DNA of 64,000 nt from Gloeomargaritales cyanobacterium VI4D9 (lineage in GTDB: Bacteria > Cyanobacteriota > Cyanobacteriia > Gloeomargaritales > Gloeomargaritaceae), in NCBI GenBank assembly GCA_927797885.1, contig OV696605.1:1-64000 (forward strand). Direction: 5' to 3'. Below, piece by piece: positions 6,104 to 50,233 of this stretch; the stretch's first letter is position 1, and every line of letters begins with the position of its first letter. A program made the translations under genes and the position numbers. Under the pieces are notes generated by a model. The model made no database searches and was not told the origin of the DNA. It saw nothing but the letters and a program-made list of their open reading frames with translations.

Positions 6104-7450
6104 ATGTGTGTATCTAGGCTCTATCTTAATGCCTGCGTGGGCGCAATGCTGATTTGGGCTACCACCGCCCCACCCCTCCAGGGACAACCCCAACCCCTGG
6201 CCACCCAAGCCGCCCGTCAGGAGCAACTAGCACGGGAACGGCAACGCGTGCAACCCCAGCACTACGACCGCCGCCGTTACCCCCTCACGCCAGACTGGGA
6301 AACCCATTGGCGGCGACTCCTGTGGGCAACCGCTTTGCAACAACCCCAACACCCCGATGTCTTCCAGGCATTGCGTGACATTTTGGGACGTTCCCGGGCG
6401 CAACATCCCACCCCCACCGAAACCAAAATCATTACCCAAGCCCTGCAAGTCAGTAATTTGTACATCCGGCAGTATCCGGCGACCCGTCCCCAACTCCAAG
6501 CCAGTTTGACACAGGTGGTGCAGACCAGCCCCCATCCCCGGTGGGTAGCCCTGGCGTTGAATGCCCTCGTTCGCAGTGGTAGCCTCACCCCGGCGCAGAC
6601 CAGCCAATGGCTCGCCCAAACCCGCCAGCGGTTTCCCCAGCCTCCTGACCTGTTGGCAATCGTACTCCAAGAACTGGCGCAAACGCCGTTACCCCTGCCG
6701 CCCCTATCGGAACTCTTGGCCTGGCAAGCCCAACCCGGCGAGATGCAACTTTATGTATTTTGTCGCACCAATCGCTGGCAACCCTGTACCTTCATTGTCA
6801 AAGATTACCAGGGGGAATTTTATCGGGAAGGGGAGCAATTGTGGTCACGGCAACTCCTGTTGCAATCGGTGTATGGGTTGGATTGGGCGTTTACCTACGG
6901 CCAGACCCCCCAGGGTTTGCAACGGGTTGCAGGCTTTACGGCCACCCGTCCGGGAGAGCTATTTCGTGCCTACGGGCAGTTTCCCCTGGTGAAATTATTT
7001 TTACCGTTGGAGGCGGGCGCGCCGGAGTTTTTCCCTGGGGAACCGGCGCCGACCCTGGCGGCTTACCAGGAACGATTGCCCCCCAGTTGGCGGGATTATG
7101 CCCCGTTGCACCAGAGCTACTATGCGGGGCGGTTGGGGCGGGGGTTACTGCGGATTCATGGCACGGGGGATGCGCCGGAATTGTTCACCCGGCCGGCGGG
7201 GGTGGAGCACCAATGGAACCCGGCTTTGGGGTGTTTGACCGCCCTGGAATTGTACACGCCCCAAGGGGAATTGCACCGGGGGGATATGGGGGACATTCTG
7301 CGGGTGCTAGACCAGGCGAGTGGGGGCACCCGGTTGGGCTATCTGCTGGTGGTGGAACTGCCGGACTCGGTGCCGATGACTGCGGGAACCGGATGGTTGG
7401 ACGCTTATTTAGAGGGTTTAGCGGGACTGCCAGGGCGTGCCCGCCCCTAG
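6104..7450 (+). CDS. Exported protein, function unknown
   Basis: 448 aa. An N-terminal signal peptide (about residues 1-27, ending near LQGQ) implies export to the periplasm or lumen. The middle is helical and rich in Q, P and L. The C-terminal third has an IHGTGDAPELF segment and, further on, NPALGCLTALEL. The spacing of a His-Gly and a Gly-Cys motif is reminiscent of L,D-transpeptidase (YkuD) active sites, but the usual SxGC motif is altered, so this is only a hint. The ATG at 6104 is chosen because it gives a full signal peptide. It may be a conserved cyanobacterial hypothetical. Confidence 0.75.
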   Translation: MCVSRLYLNACVGAMLIWATTAPPLQGQPQPLATQAARQEQLARERQRVQPQHYDRRRYPLTPDWETHWRRLLWATALQQPQHPDVFQALRDILGRSRAQHPTPTETKIITQALQVSNLYIRQYPATRPQLQASLTQVVQTSPHPRWVALALNALVRSGSLTPAQTSQWLAQTRQRFPQPPDLLAIVLQELAQTPLPLPPLSELLAWQAQPGEMQLYVFCRTNRWQPCTFIVKDYQGEFYREGEQLWSRQLLLQSVYGLDWAFTYGQTPQGLQRVAGFTATRPGELFRAYGQFPLVKLFLPLEAGAPEFFPGEPAPTLAAYQERLPPSWRDYAPLHQSYYAGRLGRGLLRIHGTGDAPELFTRPAGVEHQWNPALGCLTALELYTPQGELHRGDMGDILRVLDQASGGTRLGYLLVVELPDSVPMTAGTGWLDAYLEGLAGLPGRARP

Positions 7451-7462
7451 CTTTATTTACAT

Positions 7463-8401
7463 TTGTTTACAATAGGGTTACAGAGGGTTACAATCACGCA
7501 ATCGGCGGGGTCGTTTGTGGTCTGGCGGGGGGAATGGGCGGCACTGGGGGCGGCGTTTCTGTGGGCTTGTATGTCCCGGATTTATGCCCGTTGGGGGAAG
7601 GTGTTTCCGCCCCTGTTGTTGAATTGGTTGAAGGGAATTTTGGCGTTGGGGATGTTTGCCCTCACCTTGGCGTGGCGGGGGGAATGGTGGCCGCCGGTGG
7701 GGGGGTGGCCGCTAGTGGGCTTGGCGTTGAGTGGCCTTTTGGGAATTGGGGTGGGGGATACGGCGTTTTTTGCCGCTTTGAATTCCCTGGGGGTGCAACG
7801 GACGCTCCTGATGGATACCCTGTCGCCCATGTTGGTGACGGTGTTGGCGTGGGTGACCCTGGGGGAAGATATTCAATTGGTGCAGTTGGGGGGCATGGTG
7901 CTGACGGTGACCGGGGTGGCGGTGGTGGTGACGGAACGCCCGGTGAGTGTGCGGGAGCGGTTTCACCTATGGCCGGGGCTGGGGTGGGGGGGAATTTTTG
8001 CCCTGTCCCAGGCGGCGGGGGTGGTGCTGTCCCGCTGGGCATTGGTGGATTCCCCGGTCACGCCCCTGTGGAGTACGACGATTCGCCTGTCGGCGGGGGT
8101 GTTGGTGTTGGGATTGGGGGTGACCCGCCCGGTGTGTCGTCCGGGTTGGCGGACGATTGTGCAGCAACCGAGTTGGCTGTGGGGTTTGGCGGGAACGGCG
8201 TTTTTGAGTACCTATGTGGGGATTTGGTTGCAACAAACGGCTTTGAAATGGGCACCGGCGGGGATTGCCCAAACCTTGAGTAGCACCAGTCCCCTGTTTG
8301 CCCTGTTGTTAGCGTACTGGGCGGGGGAACGGGTGAGCAGGCGGGCTTGGTTGGGGGTGGCGGTGGCGTTAATCGGTTGTTGGTGCCTGTTTCAGGTGTA
8401 G
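7463..8401 (+). CDS. EamA-family (DMT superfamily) transporter
   Basis: About 312 aa with ten hydrophobic spans in two homologous EamA halves. Typical features are GIGVGDTAFFAAL in the first half, and LSTYVGIWLQQTALK followed by SSTSPLFALLLAY in the second. Such proteins export metabolites or amino acids across the inner membrane; the substrate cannot be read from sequence. The start is uncertain: TTG at 7463, or GTG at 7517, which begins just before the first span. A family A repeat follows directly. Confidence 0.85.
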   Translation: MFTIGLQRVTITQSAGSFVVWRGEWAALGAAFLWACMSRIYARWGKVFPPLLLNWLKGILALGMFALTLAWRGEWWPPVGGWPLVGLALSGLLGIGVGDTAFFAALNSLGVQRTLLMDTLSPMLVTVLAWVTLGEDIQLVQLGGMVLTVTGVAVVVTERPVSVRERFHLWPGLGWGGIFALSQAAGVVLSRWALVDSPVTPLWSTTIRLSAGVLVLGLGVTRPVCRPGWRTIVQQPSWLWGLAGTAFLSTYVGIWLQQTALKWAPAGIAQTLSSTSPLFALLLAYWAGERVSRRAWLGVAVALIGCWCLFQV

Positions 8402-8403
8402 AT

Positions 8404-8528
8404 GTAAAAAATGGAACAGGGTCGCAGGGGCACCGCCCCCGTAAAAGAAGCACCTGCGGTGTATGGTTCTGAAAAATTTTTGTATGCCTACGGCACGCAA
8501 GCTAATGAAAATCAAGTAGGATTGCTAT
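8404..8528 (+). repeat. MITE of repeat family A
   Basis: Contains the GC hairpin core GGGGCACCGCCCCCG, a TGGTTCTG block, a CTACGGCACGCAAGCTAATG block, and the right end AGTAGGATTGCTAT. The left terminal repeat is eroded. The IS4-type element begins at the next base, so the IS probably landed at or next to the repeat end. Confidence 0.75.
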
Positions 8529-9636
8529 CAGAAGTGTTGAAAGGTAGGTAAAGGCAGAAAAAGAGGGGTCAAAATATGGTATTCTAATTCATATAAACCA
8601 AAACATGAAACAACTATGAAATTCAATTCTTTTCCCGGGATTGTCAAATTTTTACTCAAAGACCTGCCAACTAATGATTATCCAGTTCTAAATTCTCGCT
8701 TATTTTGTTCAATCTGGTTTGCTGGCATTTTAGACAAAGGAATCAACAGTTTACGGGACTTATTTTACCAATTAAATCATGCGGGCATTAAGGTTGACTT
8801 ATCCACGTTTTCTAAGGCGAACAAGACAAGAGACCCACAAATTTTTATGCATCTTTATCATAAATTATTGCATTATATTGAGGAAGCTCATCCTGAAAAG
8901 AGGTTGGTTTTATGTCCTTTTGATGCTACCGTAATACCGCTGATGAGTAAGTTATTTTGGCTCCAAGGCTATCGCCAAGTAAAGTTAATAACCACTTTGA
9001 ATCAAGATACGAAATCTACTGGTCATTTAATTGTTAGTCCTGGACAGGCACATGAGATTAATTTTGGTGAAGATATTGTGAAAATGCTACCGGAAAATGG
9101 AGTCGCAGTCGGGGATAGAGGGTTTTGCAGTCACAAAGTATTTGAACAATTTATCGAAAATGATGCCCTTTTTATTATCCGTATTAAGTCGAATTGGAAA
9201 TGGGATGAAAACTATCATATCACCACAGAACGAGGTAAGGCGAGAGTAGTTTGTTTTGGCAATGTTCAACAGAAAGTAGACTATTATTTAGCTACCAATA
9301 TTCCTGAGGATGTAATGAGTAATGAAGAGATAGGGGAAGCCTATAGACAACGCTGGGCGATAGAGGTACTATGGAAATTTCTAAAGATGAACTTAAAGCT
9401 CGATAAAATGATGAGTAAAAATTTGAATGGAATTACCATTCAAATTTATGTAATTTTAATAGTTTACTTGATATTGCAACTGTTAAAAGTTCCACGGATG
9501 TACGGAAGTAAATTGGCAGATAAGTTCCGATATATACAAATCTTAATACGGCAGGAGTGGAATTTTGTCCATTGGCTCAATCGGGTCGTCCCACGCCTAA
9601 ATATGTAAAGTTTTATTGCAGGATTCAACACTTGTG
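8529..9636 (+). mobile_element. IS4-family insertion sequence
   Basis: About 1.1 kb containing one transposase gene. The proposed ends are the inverted pair CAGAAGTGTTGAA (8529-8541) and TTCAACACTTGTG (9624-9636), matching at 12 of 13 positions. I could not find a convincing target duplication. The right end lies inside an attC site whose left half is missing, so the insertion or a later deletion removed the start of the cassette array. Confidence 0.6.
8616..9608 (+). CDS. IS4-family transposase
   Basis: 330-aa DDE transposase. Seen: the first aspartate in FDATVIPL, the second in AVGDRGF, and the glutamate in the IS4 signature Y-x2-R-x3-E-x6-K, present as YRQRWAIEVLWKFLK. It appears full length and intact. 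Its low GC and codon choice differ from the neighbouring backbone genes. Confidence 0.9.
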   Translation: MKFNSFPGIVKFLLKDLPTNDYPVLNSRLFCSIWFAGILDKGINSLRDLFYQLNHAGIKVDLSTFSKANKTRDPQIFMHLYHKLLHYIEEAHPEKRLVLCPFDATVIPLMSKLFWLQGYRQVKLITTLNQDTKSTGHLIVSPGQAHEINFGEDIVKMLPENGVAVGDRGFCSHKVFEQFIENDALFIIRIKSNWKWDENYHITTERGKARVVCFGNVQQKVDYYLATNIPEDVMSNEEIGEAYRQRWAIEVLWKFLKMNLKLDKMMSKNLNGITIQIYVILIVYLILQLLKVPRMYGSKLADKFRYIQILIRQEWNFVHWLNRVVPRLNM

Positions 9637-9639
9637 CCC

Positions 9640-9699
9640 AGTATTATATTCTGAGCAGTTTCTAAAGCTGTTGGTAGCAGGTGAGCTAAGCCGTTATGT
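9640..9699 (+). other. Truncated attC site (right half)
   Basis: Matches the right half of the 86-bp attC family: CTGAGCAGTTTC..., then GGTAGCAGGTGAGCTAAGCC and the core GTTATGT at 9693-9699. The left core is missing at the IS end. This is the first recognisable site of the array. Confidence 0.7.
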
Positions 9700-9792
9700 T
9701 GCCAGCGCCCAAGTCGTGCTTAGTCAAGGTTGTTGGTGAAGGGGCGCTGGAGTCGGTGGGTAGTGGAGGCGACCCGTACAAAAATTTACACA
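9700..9792 (+). other. ORF-less integron cassette body, copy 1
   Basis: About 93 bases between two attC sites with no reading frame. It begins TGCCAGCGCCC and has the complementary arm GGGGCGCTGG about 30 bases on, so a transcript could fold a long-range stem. Near-identical bodies occur at 12352-12444 (two differences seen) and 13391-13483. Confidence 0.7.
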
Positions 9793-9878
9793 ACATAACA
9801 AGTCGCTGCACCTGACCTGATGCTACACTTTGAGCAGTTTCCTAAGCTACTGGTAGCAGGTGAGCTTAGCCGTTATAC
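9793..9878 (+). other. attC recombination site
   Basis: 86 bp from the left core ACATAAC to the right core GTTATAC. Inner imperfect inverted arms are present: AGTCGCTGCACCTG on the left pairs with GCAGGTGAGCTTAG-type sequence on the right. This is the layout of integron cassette sites. Confidence 0.85.
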
Positions 9879-9949
9879 TGCTGGGCTGTCGGTAGGGCGC
9901 AGCCGCAAGGTTATCAGTTGGGCGATACAAGACTTAATCTAAAATCAGC

Positions 9950-9981
9950 TTGACATTGTACTTGGGTATAAGGTCTATCCT
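9950..9981 (+). promoter_or_regulatory. Candidate MerR-type promoter of the mercury cassette
   Basis: A -35 box TTGACA (9950-9955) and a -10 box TATCCT (9976-9981) are separated by 20 bases. Overlong 19-20 bp spacers are the hallmark of promoters activated by MerR proteins, which untwist the spacer. The spacer holds an imperfect dyad (ACTT...AAGGT). It lies 38 bases before the merR-like start. Confidence 0.6.
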
Positions 9982-10019: not shown

Positions 10020-10619
10020 ATGCTGCAAGTTGGCGAAGTCTCTCACAAGCTAGGACTCAATCCGCAAACTCTATATTTCTATGAGCGCATTGGATTAATT
10101 CCAAAGCCGAAGAGAACGGAATCAGGCTACCGCTTGTACGAGGAGCAAGACTTAGAGCGGCTAGCCTTTATTACTCGTGCTAAAGCATTAGGCTTGACCC
10201 TTGATGAGATCAAAGAGATTTTGTTACTTCAGAAGGGCGAAGTGCCGATTTGCCATGAGATTCATTCCAAGCTGGTGAGTAAAGTCAGCCAAATTGAAGC
10301 GGCGATCGCCCAGTTACAGGAATTGAAAAGTGAATTATTACCGCTAATTCAGCATTGTGAAAAAAACTTTTCTGAAACAGGAGAATCCGCAAACTGTATT
10401 GTTTTTCAGGACAAACCTCTATCATTTTGGGCGAGTGTATCAGGAACAGTCATAGTTGCTCTATGTTGTTTTACACCTGTCCTCGCTGTAACCCTAAGCG
10501 CAATTGGTTTAGGGGCTGTTGTCGGCTACCTAGATTATGTTTTGCTACCTGCTTTAGTTGTGATGTGTGTTGTCACATTTCTTTCCTATCGTCGATATCG
10601 TCGTTGTGACAAATGCTAA
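10020..10619 (+). CDS. MerR-type regulator fused to a MerF-like membrane domain
   Basis: 199 aa. Residues 1-70 are a MerR winged helix (GEVSHKLGLNPQTLYFYERI). Residues 75-126 are the dimer helix, with cysteines at 78, 113 and 126 placed much as the three Hg(II)-binding cysteines of MerR (82, 117, 126). Residues 135-199 are two membrane spans with a Cys-Cys pair in CCFTPVLAV, then GYLDYVLLPAL and a C-terminal CDKC, which is the MerF mercury-transporter pattern. I infer a membrane-tethered Hg sensor and transporter in one chain. The MerR and MerF domains read in one frame without a stop. It is first in the cassette, with merTP-like and CopZ-like genes behind it. Confidence 0.85.
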   Translation: MLQVGEVSHKLGLNPQTLYFYERIGLIPKPKRTESGYRLYEEQDLERLAFITRAKALGLTLDEIKEILLLQKGEVPICHEIHSKLVSKVSQIEAAIAQLQELKSELLPLIQHCEKNFSETGESANCIVFQDKPLSFWASVSGTVIVALCCFTPVLAVTLSAIGLGAVVGYLDYVLLPALVVMCVVTFLSYRRYRRCDKC

Positions 10620-10650: not shown

Positions 10651-11241
10651 ATGAAACGTCAATGGGAACTGATTGGAGCTTTTTTAGCGTCAATAACTGC
10701 TTCAGTTTGCTGTGTGATCCCCTCGCTTTTAGCAGGGTTGGGCATTGGTGGAGCATGGATTGCCTATTTGACAGCTTTTGCCCCTTATAGACTTATTTTT
10801 ATCAGTATTACTCTAGTATTTCTAGGGTTTTCATTTTACCGAGTTTATCGCCAGCCTCAAGATTGTTCTTCTGGAAGTTTATGTGCTAACCCTCAAAAAA
10901 ATCGAACAATGAAAAAGATTTTAATCGTCTCAACAGCTTTCATTCTGGGTTTACTTGCCTTTCCCTATGCAATCCCCTACGTTTTGGGGACAGCAGCTAT
11001 TAGTCAACGTCATGTACAGATGCAGCGGGTTGTATTGCAAGTGAGTAATATGACCTGTGCGTCTTGTTCTGTGAGCGTTAGAAATAGCTTGTTGCGAGTC
11101 CGAGGGGTTCAAGATGCGATTGTCACCTTCAACCCGCCAGAGGCTGTTATTGTCTATGCCCCTGCTCAGGCTTCTATCCAAGATTTGATCCAAGCGACGA
11201 CCAAGGCTGGCTATCCATCACGTATTAAAAGCACTAAATAA
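10651..11241 (+). CDS. Mercury transporter, MerT-MerP fusion
   Basis: 196 aa. The N-terminal half is MerT-like, with a first span carrying the vicinal pair SVCCVIPSLLAGLG, a second span, and a loop with two cysteines (DCSSGSLC). A third span follows, then an HMA metal-binding domain with MTCASC, equivalent to periplasmic MerP. It should capture Hg(II) outside and pass it across the inner membrane. The start ATG at 10651 follows a GAGGAAA site, 31 bases after the regulator. No mercuric reductase (MerA) is in the cassette or window. Confidence 0.88.
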   Translation: MKRQWELIGAFLASITASVCCVIPSLLAGLGIGGAWIAYLTAFAPYRLIFISITLVFLGFSFYRVYRQPQDCSSGSLCANPQKNRTMKKILIVSTAFILGLLAFPYAIPYVLGTAAISQRHVQMQRVVLQVSNMTCASCSVSVRNSLLRVRGVQDAIVTFNPPEAVIVYAPAQASIQDLIQATTKAGYPSRIKSTK

Positions 11242-11254
11242 AAGGAGTATAGTC

Positions 11255-11740
11255 ATGGGTGAATGCTCTAATCTATCATCATCAACTAAGAGGAATGAAG
11301 CTTGTTGGCAGCGTCTCTGTCCGCAGGACGGTACACAAGGAAAACCTGTCCAACTCATCACTCTAAAAAGCCTGCTAGTACCAGTTGCACTAGAGCAATT
11401 AAATCCAGCGAGTGCTTACGGGTTTTGTCCAAGTCCCAATTGCCTTGTTGTTTACTTTTCTGAGCAGGGACAAACTTTCGCATCTGCCGATCTGAAAGTA
11501 CCTGTTTTTCAGAAAAATGTCGATGAGAATGTTTTTGTTTGCTACTGTTTTGGTTGGAGTCGCCAACGCATTCGTGAAGAGCTGAACCAGTCGGGGAAGA
11601 GCAATGTTGTCGATAGGATTATGACTCACGTTAAAGCAAAACGTTGTGGCTGTGAAGTCAATAATCCTCAAGGCTCTTGCTGTTTAGAGAATGTCAGATC
11701 GGTGGTCAAACAAACAGTTGAAGCATTGGCTAGAGGATAG
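11255..11740 (+). CDS. CopZ-like [2Fe-2S]/zinc-binding metal chaperone
   Basis: 161 aa. It has cysteines spread through both halves: an N-terminal CSNL...ACWQRLC region and a middle SPNCLVVYFS block. The C-terminal VFVCYCFGWSRQRIREEL...KRCGC...GSCC module matches the BFD-like [2Fe-2S] domain of archaeal-type CopZ proteins. The start has a strong AAAGGAG site 8 bases upstream and lies 13 bases after the merTP-like gene, so it is in the same operon. A role in binding the incoming metal ion is inferred. Confidence 0.82.
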   Translation: MGECSNLSSSTKRNEACWQRLCPQDGTQGKPVQLITLKSLLVPVALEQLNPASAYGFCPSPNCLVVYFSEQGQTFASADLKVPVFQKNVDENVFVCYCFGWSRQRIREELNQSGKSNVVDRIMTHVKAKRCGCEVNNPQGSCCLENVRSVVKQTVEALARG

Positions 11741-12053: not shown

Positions 12054-12138
12054 AGCTAACACGTCATTGGAGCGGACAAGTGAAAGCCCCTGGTGCTAAG
12101 TTTGAGTCCACGGTTGCCGCTCAATTGTGCCGTTATGT
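12054..12138 (+). other. attC recombination site
   Basis: 85 bp from AGCTAAC to GTTATGT. The inner arms ATTGGAGCGG and CCGCTCAAT are complementary with one extrahelical base. The inner sequence is of a different attC type from the 86-bp family. Confidence 0.75.
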
Positions 12139-12265
12139 TGCCAGCGCAATAGCGAGATGGTCGGCGGGGCGAGCTTCTAGATTTTCGGCTTCGTTGGTAG
12201 TTGGTGGGGCGACCCGTGCGCTGGAATCGGTAAAAGTCTGGGGCGATAGGCGTAGAAGTTACACA
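12139..12265 (+). other. ORF-less integron cassette body
   Basis: 127 bases between attC sites. It starts TGCCAGCGCAA and carries a later GCGCTGGAA arm, so it has the same hairpin design as the other ORF-less cassettes but a different sequence in between. No believable reading frame. Confidence 0.6.
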
Positions 12266-12351
12266 ACATAACAAGTCGCTGCACCTGACCTGATGCTACA
12301 CTTTGATCAGTTTTCCAAGCCCCTGGTGGCGGGTGAGCTTAGCCGTTATGT
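12266..12351 (+). other. attC recombination site
   Basis: 86 bp from ACATAAC to GTTATGT. Same family as 9793-9878, with the right arm GGTGGCGGGTGAGCTTAGCC. Confidence 0.85.
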
Positions 12352-12444
12352 TGCCAGCGCCCAAGTCGTGCTTAGTCAGGGTTATTGGTGAAGGGGCGCT
12401 GGAGTCGGTGGGTAGTGGAGGCGACCCGTACAAAAATTTACACA
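12352..12444 (+). other. ORF-less integron cassette body, copy 2
   Basis: Nearly identical to 9700-9792 (two single-base differences seen), with the same hairpin arms. The cassette has been duplicated within the array. Confidence 0.7.
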
Positions 12445-12530
12445 ACATAACAAGTCGCTGCACCTGACCTGATGCTACACTTTGCGCAGTCCTCCAAGCC
12501 CCTGGCGACAGGTGAGCTTAGCCGTTAGAT
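12445..12530 (+). other. attC recombination site
   Basis: 86 bp from ACATAAC to GTTAGAT. 86-bp family, with the right arm GGCGACAGGTGAGCTTAGCC. Confidence 0.85.
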
Positions 12531-12585
12531 TGCAAAACAGACTGAGTGGTAGAATAATTGTGTACCTCTACAATGTGAACTAGAC

Positions 12586-12813
12586 ATGACCAGTCTCTTG
12601 CAAAAAGCATTTACAGAAATCCAGAAACTACCAGACTCACTTCAAGATGAACTTGCTCAGCAATTGCTGAAAGATGTTGAAAGTGAATTAAAATGGCAGG
12701 AAAGCCTTTCAGACGAGGATATTGAACTGGGAAATTTAATAACAATGGCACAAGAAGCCTTAATGGAAGAGCGGGAGGGAAGAACGGAAGATAAAGGCTT
12801 TGGAGAAGAATGA
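12586..12813 (+). CDS. Antitoxin of a RelE/ParE-type pair (putative)
   Basis: 75 residues, acidic, with an N-terminal helix of LLQKAFTEIQKLPDSLQDEL type and a disordered acidic C-terminus, as seen in many cassette-borne and cyanobacterial antitoxins. No DNA-binding fold is obvious. It is called antitoxin by its position: its ATGA overlaps the start of the toxin gene by four bases, and both lie alone in one attC-flanked cassette. Confidence 0.75.
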   Translation: MTSLLQKAFTEIQKLPDSLQDELAQQLLKDVESELKWQESLSDEDIELGNLITMAQEALMEEREGRTEDKGFGEE

Positions 12814-13085
12814 GGTCATCCAGAACCAAGAAATTTCATGACCTTTTTCTAAGTTTGCCCCAAAGAGTACAAGAGACAGCAAAGAAAAACTACAAAATTT
12901 GGAAAGAGAATCCATTTTATCCAAGTTTAGAATTCAAAGAGGTGAAACCAAGAGAAAGAATATGGTCAGTCAGAGTTGGTATCGGATGGCGAGCTTTAGG
13001 AATCATGAAGCCAGATGAAGAAAAAATAGTGTGGTTCTGGGTTGGATCACACTCCGAGTATGACAAGATTCTAAGCAAAAATTAA
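12810..13085 (+). CDS. RelE/HigB-type toxin (putative)
   Basis: 91 residues. The central ERIWSVRVGIGWRALGI strand pattern and the C-terminal IVWFWVGSHSEYDKIL are typical of cytotoxic RelE/HigB-superfamily mRNA interferases. Basic N-terminus, length as expected. It is translationally coupled to the antitoxin at 12586. Toxin-antitoxin cassettes are common stabilisers of large integron arrays. Confidence 0.82.
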   Translation: MRSSRTKKFHDLFLSLPQRVQETAKKNYKIWKENPFYPSLEFKEVKPRERIWSVRVGIGWRALGIMKPDEEKIVWFWVGSHSEYDKILSKN

Positions 13086-13090
13086 GAGCA

Positions 13091-13176
13091 ATCTAACAAC
13101 TCACTGCACCCGTCCTGATGCTAAACTTTAAGCACTACCCAAAACTACTAGTGGCGGGTGAGTTCAACCGTTATGT
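13091..13176 (+). other. attC recombination site of the toxin-antitoxin cassette
   Basis: 86 bp from ATCTAAC, which matches RYYYAAC exactly, to GTTATGT. 86-bp family. It starts six bases after the toxin stop codon. Confidence 0.85.
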
Positions 13177-13314
13177 TGCCAGCGCAACAAGGTTATCTGT
13201 GGGGTTCAGTCGAGAAGTTTTTAGCTATGTTGGGAGATGGTTGGCGTATCGGCGCTGGCAGTTGCACTTAGTGAGAAACTTATTAGCGATCGCCCCACAA
13301 AGAGAGATAACAAA
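13177..13314 (+). other. ORF-less integron cassette body
   Basis: 138 bases. It has the 8-base arms GCCAGCGC and GCGCTGGC, as in the other ORF-less cassettes, and one GCGATCGC octamer (HIP1) at 13286. No credible reading frame. Confidence 0.6.
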
Positions 13315-13390
13315 TCATTGGAGCGGACTGAAAAGTGATATTTTGGTGATAGGCAAGAGTTATCTCAGCCGCTCAATTCAGCCGTTATGT
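13315..13390 (+). other. attC recombination site
   Basis: 76 bp from AGATAAC to GTTATGT. The inner arms ATTGGAGCGG and CCGCTCAATT resemble those of the site at 12054. The left core deviates from RYYYAAC at its second and third positions. Confidence 0.7.
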
Positions 13391-13483
13391 TGCCAGCGCC
13401 AGGGATATGCCTAGTCAAAGTTGTTGGTGAAGGGGCGCTGGAGTCGGTGGGTAGTGGAGGCGATCGGTACAAAAATTCACACA
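13391..13483 (+). other. ORF-less integron cassette body, copy 3
   Basis: Third copy of the cassette at 9700 and 12352, more diverged in its first 25 bases but with the same GGGGCGCTGGAGTCGGTGGG stretch and downstream part. Confidence 0.65.
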
Positions 13484-13569
13484 ACATAACAAATCACTGC
13501 ACCCGACCTGATGCTATACTTTAGTCATTACCCAAAACCTCTGGTGGCGGGTGAGTTCAACCGTTATCT
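13484..13569 (+). other. attC recombination site
   Basis: 86 bp from ACATAAC to GTTATCT. 86-bp family, with the left arm AATCACTGCACCCGACC and the right arm GGTGGCGGGTGAGTTCAACC. It marks the left border of the Argonaute cassette. Confidence 0.85.
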
Positions 13570-13630
13570 CTACAAGAATGGGTATCAATCTTCACCGCTG
13601 CTATAGTTGTTAACAATTTCGTACCTCACC

Positions 13631-14341
13631 ATGAATCCCTTGACAAAACTTGAACAAACCTCGGTAGTACTTAATCGCTACTTAGTAAGACCTCTAGAGG
13701 AAAGAGATTTGACAATTCATGAGTATCAATGTCATTTTGATCAACTCCCACAGCAAGGCGATGAACAAAGAGCAATTTCTAGTATTTGTTACAAACTAGG
13801 AGTCACTGCGGTTAGATTAGGCAGTCGAATTATCACTAGAGAAGAAGTTAGTCCTACAAAGATGAGGAGCGATGATTGGAAGTTATCTAAGATAGCTACC
13901 CGAAAATTAGACTGTAGTAATACTTACGAAAGAAAAGCTTTGGAAAGCCTTGAGCGTAGGGTTTTAGAGCAAAGACTAAAAAATTCCTTTAATAAAACTG
14001 AGATTGAAAGAGACTCAGAAGGTGGACTGATTTGGTGGATTACAGGTCATGAGGGTGCAGAGAAATGTGGAGATGGTTGGGAAGTACACAGAGGGAGAAG
14101 AATAGATGTCGTTATTGACTCAGATGGCAACCTCTACCTAGAAATCGACATACATCATCGATTCTATACACCTTGGACACTCCATCAATGGCTAGAAGAG
14201 TATCCTGATATACCTATCAGTTATGTTAGGAACACATATAAAGATAAAAACAATAATTACATTAGGGCACCTCTATTTATTCAAAATATGAGAACGAAAC
14301 ACAAAAACAGCATAGCATTGCTCAGTACTTTTTTGTACTAA
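13631..14341 (+). CDS. Argonaute N-terminal fragment (N, L1 and part of PAZ)
   Basis: The first 211 codons are native Argonaute sequence, starting MNPLTKLEQTSVVLNRYLVR; the last 25 or so residues are read out of the IS left end and stop at 14339-14341. It lacks MID and PIWI, so it cannot bind the 5' end of a guide or cleave. A TTG at 13607 is in frame upstream, but the ATG is preferred. Confidence 0.8.
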   Translation: MNPLTKLEQTSVVLNRYLVRPLEERDLTIHEYQCHFDQLPQQGDEQRAISSICYKLGVTAVRLGSRIITREEVSPTKMRSDDWKLSKIATRKLDCSNTYERKALESLERRVLEQRLKNSFNKTEIERDSEGGLIWWITGHEGAEKCGDGWEVHRGRRIDVVIDSDGNLYLEIDIHHRFYTPWTLHQWLEEYPDIPISYVRNTYKDKNNNYIRAPLFIQNMRTKHKNSIALLSTFLY

Positions 14342-17079: not shown

Positions 17080-17100
17080 CAATTGCAATCAGTTGAGTAG

Positions 17101-17186
17101 AGATAACAAATCACTGCACCCGACCTGATGCTATAATCCAACCATTATCCAAAACTACTGGTGGCGGGTGAGTTCAGCCGTTAGCC
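17101..17186 (+). other. attC recombination site of the Argonaute cassette
   Basis: 86 bp from AGATAAC to GTTAGCC. The inner sequence is of the 86-bp family (AATCACTGCACCCGACC and GGTGGCGGGTGAGTTCAGCC). It starts 21 bases after the Argonaute stop codon, as expected for a cassette's own attC. Confidence 0.85.
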
Positions 17187-17203
17187 CGCTTGGGAGAACA
17201 CAG

Positions 17204-21169: not shown

Positions 21170-21250
21170 ATTGCGGGTGATTGGGTCAAAGGATCCCTGG
21201 AGGGCTGGTCACTGAGGCTCCGGGTAGATCTCGGTAGAGAGAGTCGCCCA

Positions 21251-21337
21251 ACATAACAAGTCACTGCACCCGACCTTGGGGTAGATTGTTGGCTGGGATC
21301 CCAGATTTAGAGTGGCGGGTGAGTTCAGCCGATCATG
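21251..21337 (+). other. Damaged attC site at the array's right edge
   Basis: The left core ACATAAC, the arm AGTCACTGCACCCGACC and the right arm GTGGCGGGTGAGTTCAGCC belong to the 86-bp family. The right core reads GATCATG instead of GTTATGT: homology stops right after the G at which integron integrases cut. It is joined there to the inside of a tnpB gene. Confidence 0.65.
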
Positions 21338-50147: not shown

Positions 50148-50233
50148 CTATGTCGGTTGAACTCACCCGCCGTCATTCACTTTGGATGATGCGAATAGCC
50201 TACCATACGGTCGGGTGCAGTGATTTGTTAGAC
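50148..50233 (-). other. Orphan attC-like site, reverse strand
   Basis: Read on the minus strand: left core GTCTAAC, matching RYYYAAC exactly, then AAATCACTGCACCCGACC, and 86 bases on GGCGGGTGAGTTCAACCG with a decayed right core GACATAG. Clearly the same family as the sites at 13484 and 17101, 29 kb away. Confidence 0.75.

Follow-up and report, generated by a model that had tools for sequence, protein, structure and literature searches.

A MerR-type regulator fused in frame to a MerF-like membrane transporter on an apparent integron cassette of a Gloeomargaritales cyanobacterium

Promoters under the control of MerR-type regulators usually have a long spacer of 19-20 bp with an operator dyad, and all MerR-family metal sensors known to us are soluble proteins. 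MerF transporters are membrane hairpins for which a cytoplasmic location of both ends is established, and the membrane-bound one-component regulators of the ToxR/CadC type consist of a single span and a periplasmic sensor. Transport of Hg by MerF requires its CC pair (PMC5500634). Cyanobacteria have been reported as a phylum without mer operons (PMC6741143), MerA and mer operons being all but absent from them (PMC8261052, PMC6741143), and in Synechocystis a mercuric reductase of a different type, Slr1849, is functional (PMC6741143). Here, we describe a cyanobacterial locus at which a MerR-type regulator and a MerF-like transporter are encoded by one gene; it lies in a contiguous stretch of 64,000 nucleotides, hereafter called the window.

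The initial annotation of this DNA had claimed a frame of 199 amino acids that joins the two domains. This claim was borne out exactly, as positions 10020-10619 of the forward strand form a single open frame of 199 codons from ATG to TAA with no internal stop (Table 1). Domain searches, proposed there as a check, matched both families strongly. In Pfam, MerR_1 covers residues 4-68 (E 1.3e-18) and MerR-DNA-bind residues 45-107 (E 3.4e-16), with scores in the regulator half of 67 bits for PF13411, 61 for PF00376 and 60 for PF09278, while Transport_MerF (PF11431) covers residues 152-195 (E 1.5e-17, 63.7 bits against a cut-off of 24.3). The Pfam matches for the MerR helix-turn-helix, the MerR DNA-binding/dimerisation region and MerF thus all exceed their gathering scores, and the NCBIfam model trans_MerF (NF033565) spans residues 137-192 with 82.3 bits against a curated cut-off of 50. 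Among PDB sequences, the first 120 residues match 4ua1 (MerR of B. megaterium), 5gpe (PbrR691), CadR and CueR, and residues 136-197 match the NMR structures of MerF (2m67/2moz, 2h3o and 2lj2). Judged by these matches, the order of a MerR followed by a MerF domain is far beyond chance and both halves appear intact and essentially full length. We consider it very likely that the fusion is real in the sequence.

Table 1. Coordinates of the features at and around the fusion gene in the window.
Feature	Position	Strand	Characteristics
attC-like repeat, left edge of cluster	9788..9876	+	repeat families D2/D3; core GTTAT at 9872
MerR-type operator-promoter	9950..9981	+	TTGACA, 20-bp spacer, TATCCT
MerR domain of fusion, codons 1-131	10020..10412	+	winged HTH, dimerisation helix, three-Cys metal site C78/C113/C126; Pfam/NCBIfam, PDB relatives, AF2/Foldseek
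Fusion joint, codons 132-135 (KPLS)	10413..10424	+	DNA alignment with locus L121
MerF domain of fusion, codons 136-199	10425..10616	+	two-helix membrane hairpin, CC pair 149/150, C-terminal CDKC; NF033565, PF11431, NMR structures, hydropathy
MerT-MerP-like fusion protein	10651..11241	+	MerT domain 5-110 (Pfam, 97 bits), HMA domain 128-188 (39 bits)
CopZ-type zinc/[2Fe-2S] metallochaperone-like protein	11255..11740	+	NF047645 127.5 bits, above cut-off of 100; zf_CopZ 70.8 bits
attC-like repeat, beyond right edge of cluster	12261..12349	+	further GTTAT cores at 12132, 12345 and 12524

An AF2 model of the monomer, computed with an alignment of MerR sequences only, consists of the MerR fold followed by the helices of a hairpin. 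Its pLDDT lies at 85-96 for most of residues 1-120, dips to near 75 at residues 71-80 and is 54-69 in the tail, which is helical at low confidence, and Foldseek matched the model to CadR, CueR, PbrR691 and MerR. The two membrane spans that had been proposed coincide with hydropathy segments at about 138-162 and 167-190, the first of which carries the vicinal cysteines C149 and C150. The second, C-terminal cysteine pair has the form CDKC (CxxC) and is not a vicinal CC as in characterised proteobacterial MerF. Since the MerF of a cyanobacterium of a different family (G406) has no cysteine at all at this position, a second CC pair is not universal in the MerF family. The C-terminal RRYRR and the hydropathy of the MerF half fit a hairpin with both termini inside. 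From this arginine-rich end, read by the positive-inside rule, and the MerF literature, we infer that the N-terminal MerR domain would lie on the right side of the membrane to meet DNA, and the anatomy of the protein points to a membrane-tethered regulator.

The three cysteines that had been assigned to the metal site are located, as in the metal-responsive branch of the MerR family, where the dimerisation helix begins and in the loop towards the C-terminus. A comparison of 30 cyanobacterial homologues shows that they are conserved: C78 and C113 never vary, and C126 is retained in at least 90%. The initial annotation was right about a MerR-MerF fusion with intact domains; its view of the protein as a mercury sensor was not established, as the score of 91.2 bits with the Hg-specific MerR equivalog TIGR02051 falls below the cut-off of 150.85. 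The NCBIfam models for Zn, Cd/Pb, Cu and Hg regulators score nearly equally (91-97 bits), all under their cut-offs, with those for Zn, Cd/Pb and Cu slightly above that for Hg. Many of the closest MerR homologues adjoin genes for ArsE-like thioredoxins, SaoE/SO_0444-like permeases or the arsenite pump ACR3, and some adjoin genes for CopZ-like proteins. Hg(II) appears plausible as the ligand of the MerR half.

Upstream of the fusion gene, the operator-promoter contains the dyad ACATTGTAC-TTGG-GTATAAGGT at 9953-9974. A TTGAC-N-TANNNT layout is found 55-76 bp upstream of merR in 46 of 65 further cyanobacterial homologues, as counted by hand from the listed upstream regions, and most of these 46 promoters carry a ACCTTATAC/GTATAAGGT dyad. 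The operator-promoter is intact in the window; G406 lacks both the -35 box and the left operator half. This architecture implies that the fusion gene regulates itself and the genes behind it. An operator of the form TTGACCTTATAC-NNNN-GTATAAGGT with a 20-bp spacer is common to merR homologues of a wide cyanobacterial set (L003-L074), whose neighbours include genes for ArsE-like thioredoxin/permease and fatty-acid-desaturase-like proteins as well as others.

The gene directly behind the fusion encodes the MerT-MerP-like protein, which reaches 98.6 bits with the MerTP_fusion model, below the cut-off of 180. The NCBIfam model nearest to this protein describes a MerT/CopZ fusion-like selenoprotein (151 bits, also below the cut-off). 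No MerA above the cut-off was found anywhere in the genome, the best match to TIGR02053 scoring 309 bits against 454, and a paralogue of this best match with a like score occurs in both genomes of the same genus that were tested.

The origin of the fusion can be traced by comparison with G406, which at locus L121 has separate merR and merF genes overlapping by ATGA. Its proteins are 86% (MerR) and 70% (MerF) identical to the corresponding halves in the window, and the DNA alignment is free of gaps up to the end of merR. At the junction, G406 reads CAGGACAAATTGCCATGAAGTCCAAAGTTACGTTTTGGGC, in which the TGA stop of merR and the ATG of merF overlap, and the window reads CAGGACAAACCTCTATCATTTTGGGC, which is 14 bases shorter. 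This gap falls between about 10422 and 10423. With it, both the stop of merR and the start of merF are gone, and merF, which in G406 is read in frame +2 relative to merR, comes to lie in the same frame. MerR is shortened by only a few residues at its end and MerF by six at its beginning, and no conserved residue is lost. An ancestral merR-merF pair probably became a translational fusion through a 14-bp deletion across the ATGA overlap. Overlaps of the -4 type couple translation according to a general finding (PMC10666635), and by analogy the overlap in the ancestor would already have coupled translation of merR and merF.

No ATG, GTG or TTG occurs in the MerF frame of the window from codon 102 to codon 175. 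Since MerF in the window thus lacks a usual start codon, a one-base sequencing slip cannot account for the fusion. The concern that a frameshift between codons 126 and 140 had been overlooked was thereby settled, the difference from G406 being 14 bp and no one-base correction restoring two ordinary genes. Between the window and G406, dN/dS is low, at 0.23 for merR, 0.38 for merF and 0.22 for copZ, so that the three genes were under constraint. As these values sum the two branches and may for the most part be older than the fusion, the constraint cannot be dated to the period since the fusion, and as the fusion occurs in one genome only, selection on the fused state is not demonstrable.

We then asked how widespread the arrangement is. 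MerF is present in 18 of 390 genomes of the class and in 5 of 386 genomes of the phylum, together about 20 distinct genomes, and only the source genome has MerF inside a MerR frame (215 codons). A six-frame search across all compared loci recovered both domains in one frame only in the window's own copies, and no close copy was found in the other seven genomes of the order, which counts eight with the source genome. The survey of other genomes that the initial annotation had suggested thus found the same fusion nowhere else among the MerF-carrying cyanobacteria sampled. Searches that included tblastn against plasmids found merR and merF adjacent or near each other, yet separate, on plasmids of Stanieria and Gloeocapsa, and the same holds for Enterococcus, Bacillaceae and Vibrio. 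Plasmid hits in one piece in Caballeronia, Phaeobacter and Streptomyces were rejected as fusions, since sequence or annotation revealed separate genes or read-through alignments. IMG/VR yielded distant MerR hits only, and searches of the literature turned up neither a MerR-MerF fusion nor a MerR tethered to the membrane. The fusion is a novel arrangement of two known families and not a new kind of system.

The region looks like an integron cassette. The attC-like repeat has 7 near-matches in the window, where 0.00 are expected. In an alignment of the window with locus L073 of another cyanobacterium, identity rises from random to about 93% exactly at the GTTAT at 9872, a breakpoint as would be expected of a cassette inserted at the core site. 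We use the label attC-like because folding of the repeats as DNA was no better than that of shuffled sequences; the claim rests on the repeats and the breakpoints. Repeats of the form AACAAGTCGCTGCACCTGACC ... GGTGAGCTTAGCCGTTAT occur at 9645-9881, 12105-12540, 13089-13578, 17099-17195, 21231-21276 and 50209-50229 (reverse strand). They probably form an array of integron cassettes that lacks a complete integrase; the integrase matches in full in G406 (374 bits) and partially in the source genome, as a fragment of IntI at G000:C1:953111-953470.

Several further observations concern these cassettes. In L073 (3853-4204, a Leptolyngbyaceae MAG), the same cassette starts exactly at GTTAT, and its merR is cut by unrelated sequence after about codon 68. 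At locus L160 of G406 (6933-8605, reverse strand), merR-merF-copZ lies beside an arr gene that encodes a rifampin ADP-ribosyltransferase and is bounded by GTTAGGC/GTTAGAC cores, so that a metal cluster and a resistance-type cassette stand side by side in a cyanobacterium. Toxin-antitoxin pairs between attC-type repeats are typical of cassette arrays, and a small gene pair at 12586-13085 in the window, the second member of which has a ParE-like toxin domain, is likely to be such a pair between attC-like repeats. A frame of 244 amino acids at 13607-14341, whose terminal part weakly matches an Argonaute PAZ domain below the cut-off and which is followed by a transposase gene, is possibly a truncated gene.

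The reading that we favour, at a probability of just under one half (about 0.47), is a membrane-tethered, autoregulated sensor that was born by deletion and has kept its importer function. What can be read from the DNA is the intact fused frame with its domains and ligand cysteines, the operator and operon, and the deletion relative to G406. The DNA-binding domain would be cytoplasmic and held at the membrane by a joint of less than 10 residues behind the metal ligand C126. A dimer of the fusion would sit on its own operator (Table 1) and repress or hold the promoter until a thiophilic ion bound to C78/C113/C126 switches it on; for this, the dimer would have to reach and bend the DNA while anchored by two short tethers. 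The ion could reach these cysteines from the CC pair of the same protein, and the fusion would control not just its own synthesis but also how much MerTP-like importer and CopZ-like chaperone is made. The location in the membrane, the dimer on DNA, the transfer of the ion and Hg(II) as the ion are what we infer from this anatomy. That sensing and import may be coupled in one protein is a fair hypothesis. In its strongest form, a one-protein metal circuit in which the hairpin hands the ion directly to the fused, membrane-anchored activator and which arose in one step by the 14-bp deletion in a mobile cassette, we find it somewhat unlikely.

Other explanations overlap in part with this reading and with each other, the question of the ion being independent of the rest, and the weights that we attach to them do not sum to one. 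The same tethered regulator might be tuned to As(III), Cd/Pb or Cu instead of Hg(II). With near-equal scores below the cut-off for the Zn, Cd/Pb, Cu and Hg models, an ArsE-like thioredoxin, SaoE/SO_0444-like permeases and ACR3 next to the closest homologues and no MerA above the cut-off in the genome, this has a fair chance of being true, if less than one half, even though MerF- and MerTP-like proteins, both typical of Hg transport, are its partners in the operon and three conserved cysteines suit Hg(II) as well. Import of Hg without MerA would seem harmful, which counts against the explanation that we favour. Alternatively, the fusion may be real and nevertheless a fresh lesion in a weakly selected cassette, with one function (normal regulation being the likeliest) or both already gone and decay under way. 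Its occurrence in one of the eight genomes of the order and in none of the other approximately 20 MerF-carrying cyanobacteria sampled, the transposases and repeat remnants in the region, the truncation of the same cassette at codon 68 in L073 and the fragmentary IntI match of the source genome all argue for decay. On the other hand, no other damage is seen, since the operator, MerTP and CopZ are intact, as are the frame and its metal cysteines, and no conserved residue was lost where the deletion fused the two frames; we regard a lesion as somewhat unlikely.

The two halves could also work separately as in the relatives, if a membrane or housekeeping protease cut the short joint or if MerF started at the ATT of codon 127. 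The joint IVFQDKPLSF is indeed short and predicted as coil at low confidence by AF2, and the ATT is present, but ATT seldom serves as a start, no Shine-Dalgarno-like sequence is well placed in the 18 bases upstream (GGAGAATCCGCAAACTGT; a GGAG ends 14 bases off), and there is no known protease site. Such separate forms are improbable. Least credible of all is a sequencing or assembly artefact concealing two truly separate genes. Although the fusion is known from a single genome assembly, this genome is a single contig and 99.91% complete, the 14-bp gap involves no homopolymer, and no single-base error would suffice given that MerF lacks a usual start codon.

If the tethered form that we favour works, bending of promoter DNA by a MerR dimer is possible at the membrane, and the protein offers a testable case of direct hand-over of an ion from importer to sensor. 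The unfused G406 and the fused source genome form a clean before/after pair for how the loss of a few bases at an ATGA overlap fuses two genes. Moreover, mer-type transport genes under a MerR-type promoter of their own are seen here on apparent integron cassettes in cyanobacteria.

Compared with known systems, the protein resembles the MerR-family metal regulators (MerR of Tn501 and B. megaterium, PbrR691, CadR, CueR and ZntR) in its helix-turn-helix, dimerisation helix and three-cysteine site as well as in the long-spacer promoter with a dyad and the autoregulated operon, but whereas these are soluble and end soon after the metal loop, it runs on into a membrane hairpin. With the MerF transporters (2m67, 2h3o, 2lj2), it shares the two-helix hairpin, the CC pair in helix 1 and the GYLDYVLLPAL motif; it differs in that its MerF lacks a start codon of its own, carries a DNA-binding domain of 131 amino acids at the N-terminus and has its second pair as CxxC in place of CC. 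The merR-merF pair of G406 (L121/L160) has the same gene content and the same CopZ-like gene, but there the two genes overlap by ATGA, no MerTP-like gene lies in between, and the -35 box and left operator half present in the window are missing. Finally, ToxR/CadC-type regulators likewise combine a cytoplasmic DNA-binding domain with a C-terminal membrane anchor, yet they belong to an unrelated helix-turn-helix family and have a single span and a periplasmic sensor, whereas in the window protein the sensor would be cytoplasmic and a transporter would serve as the anchor.
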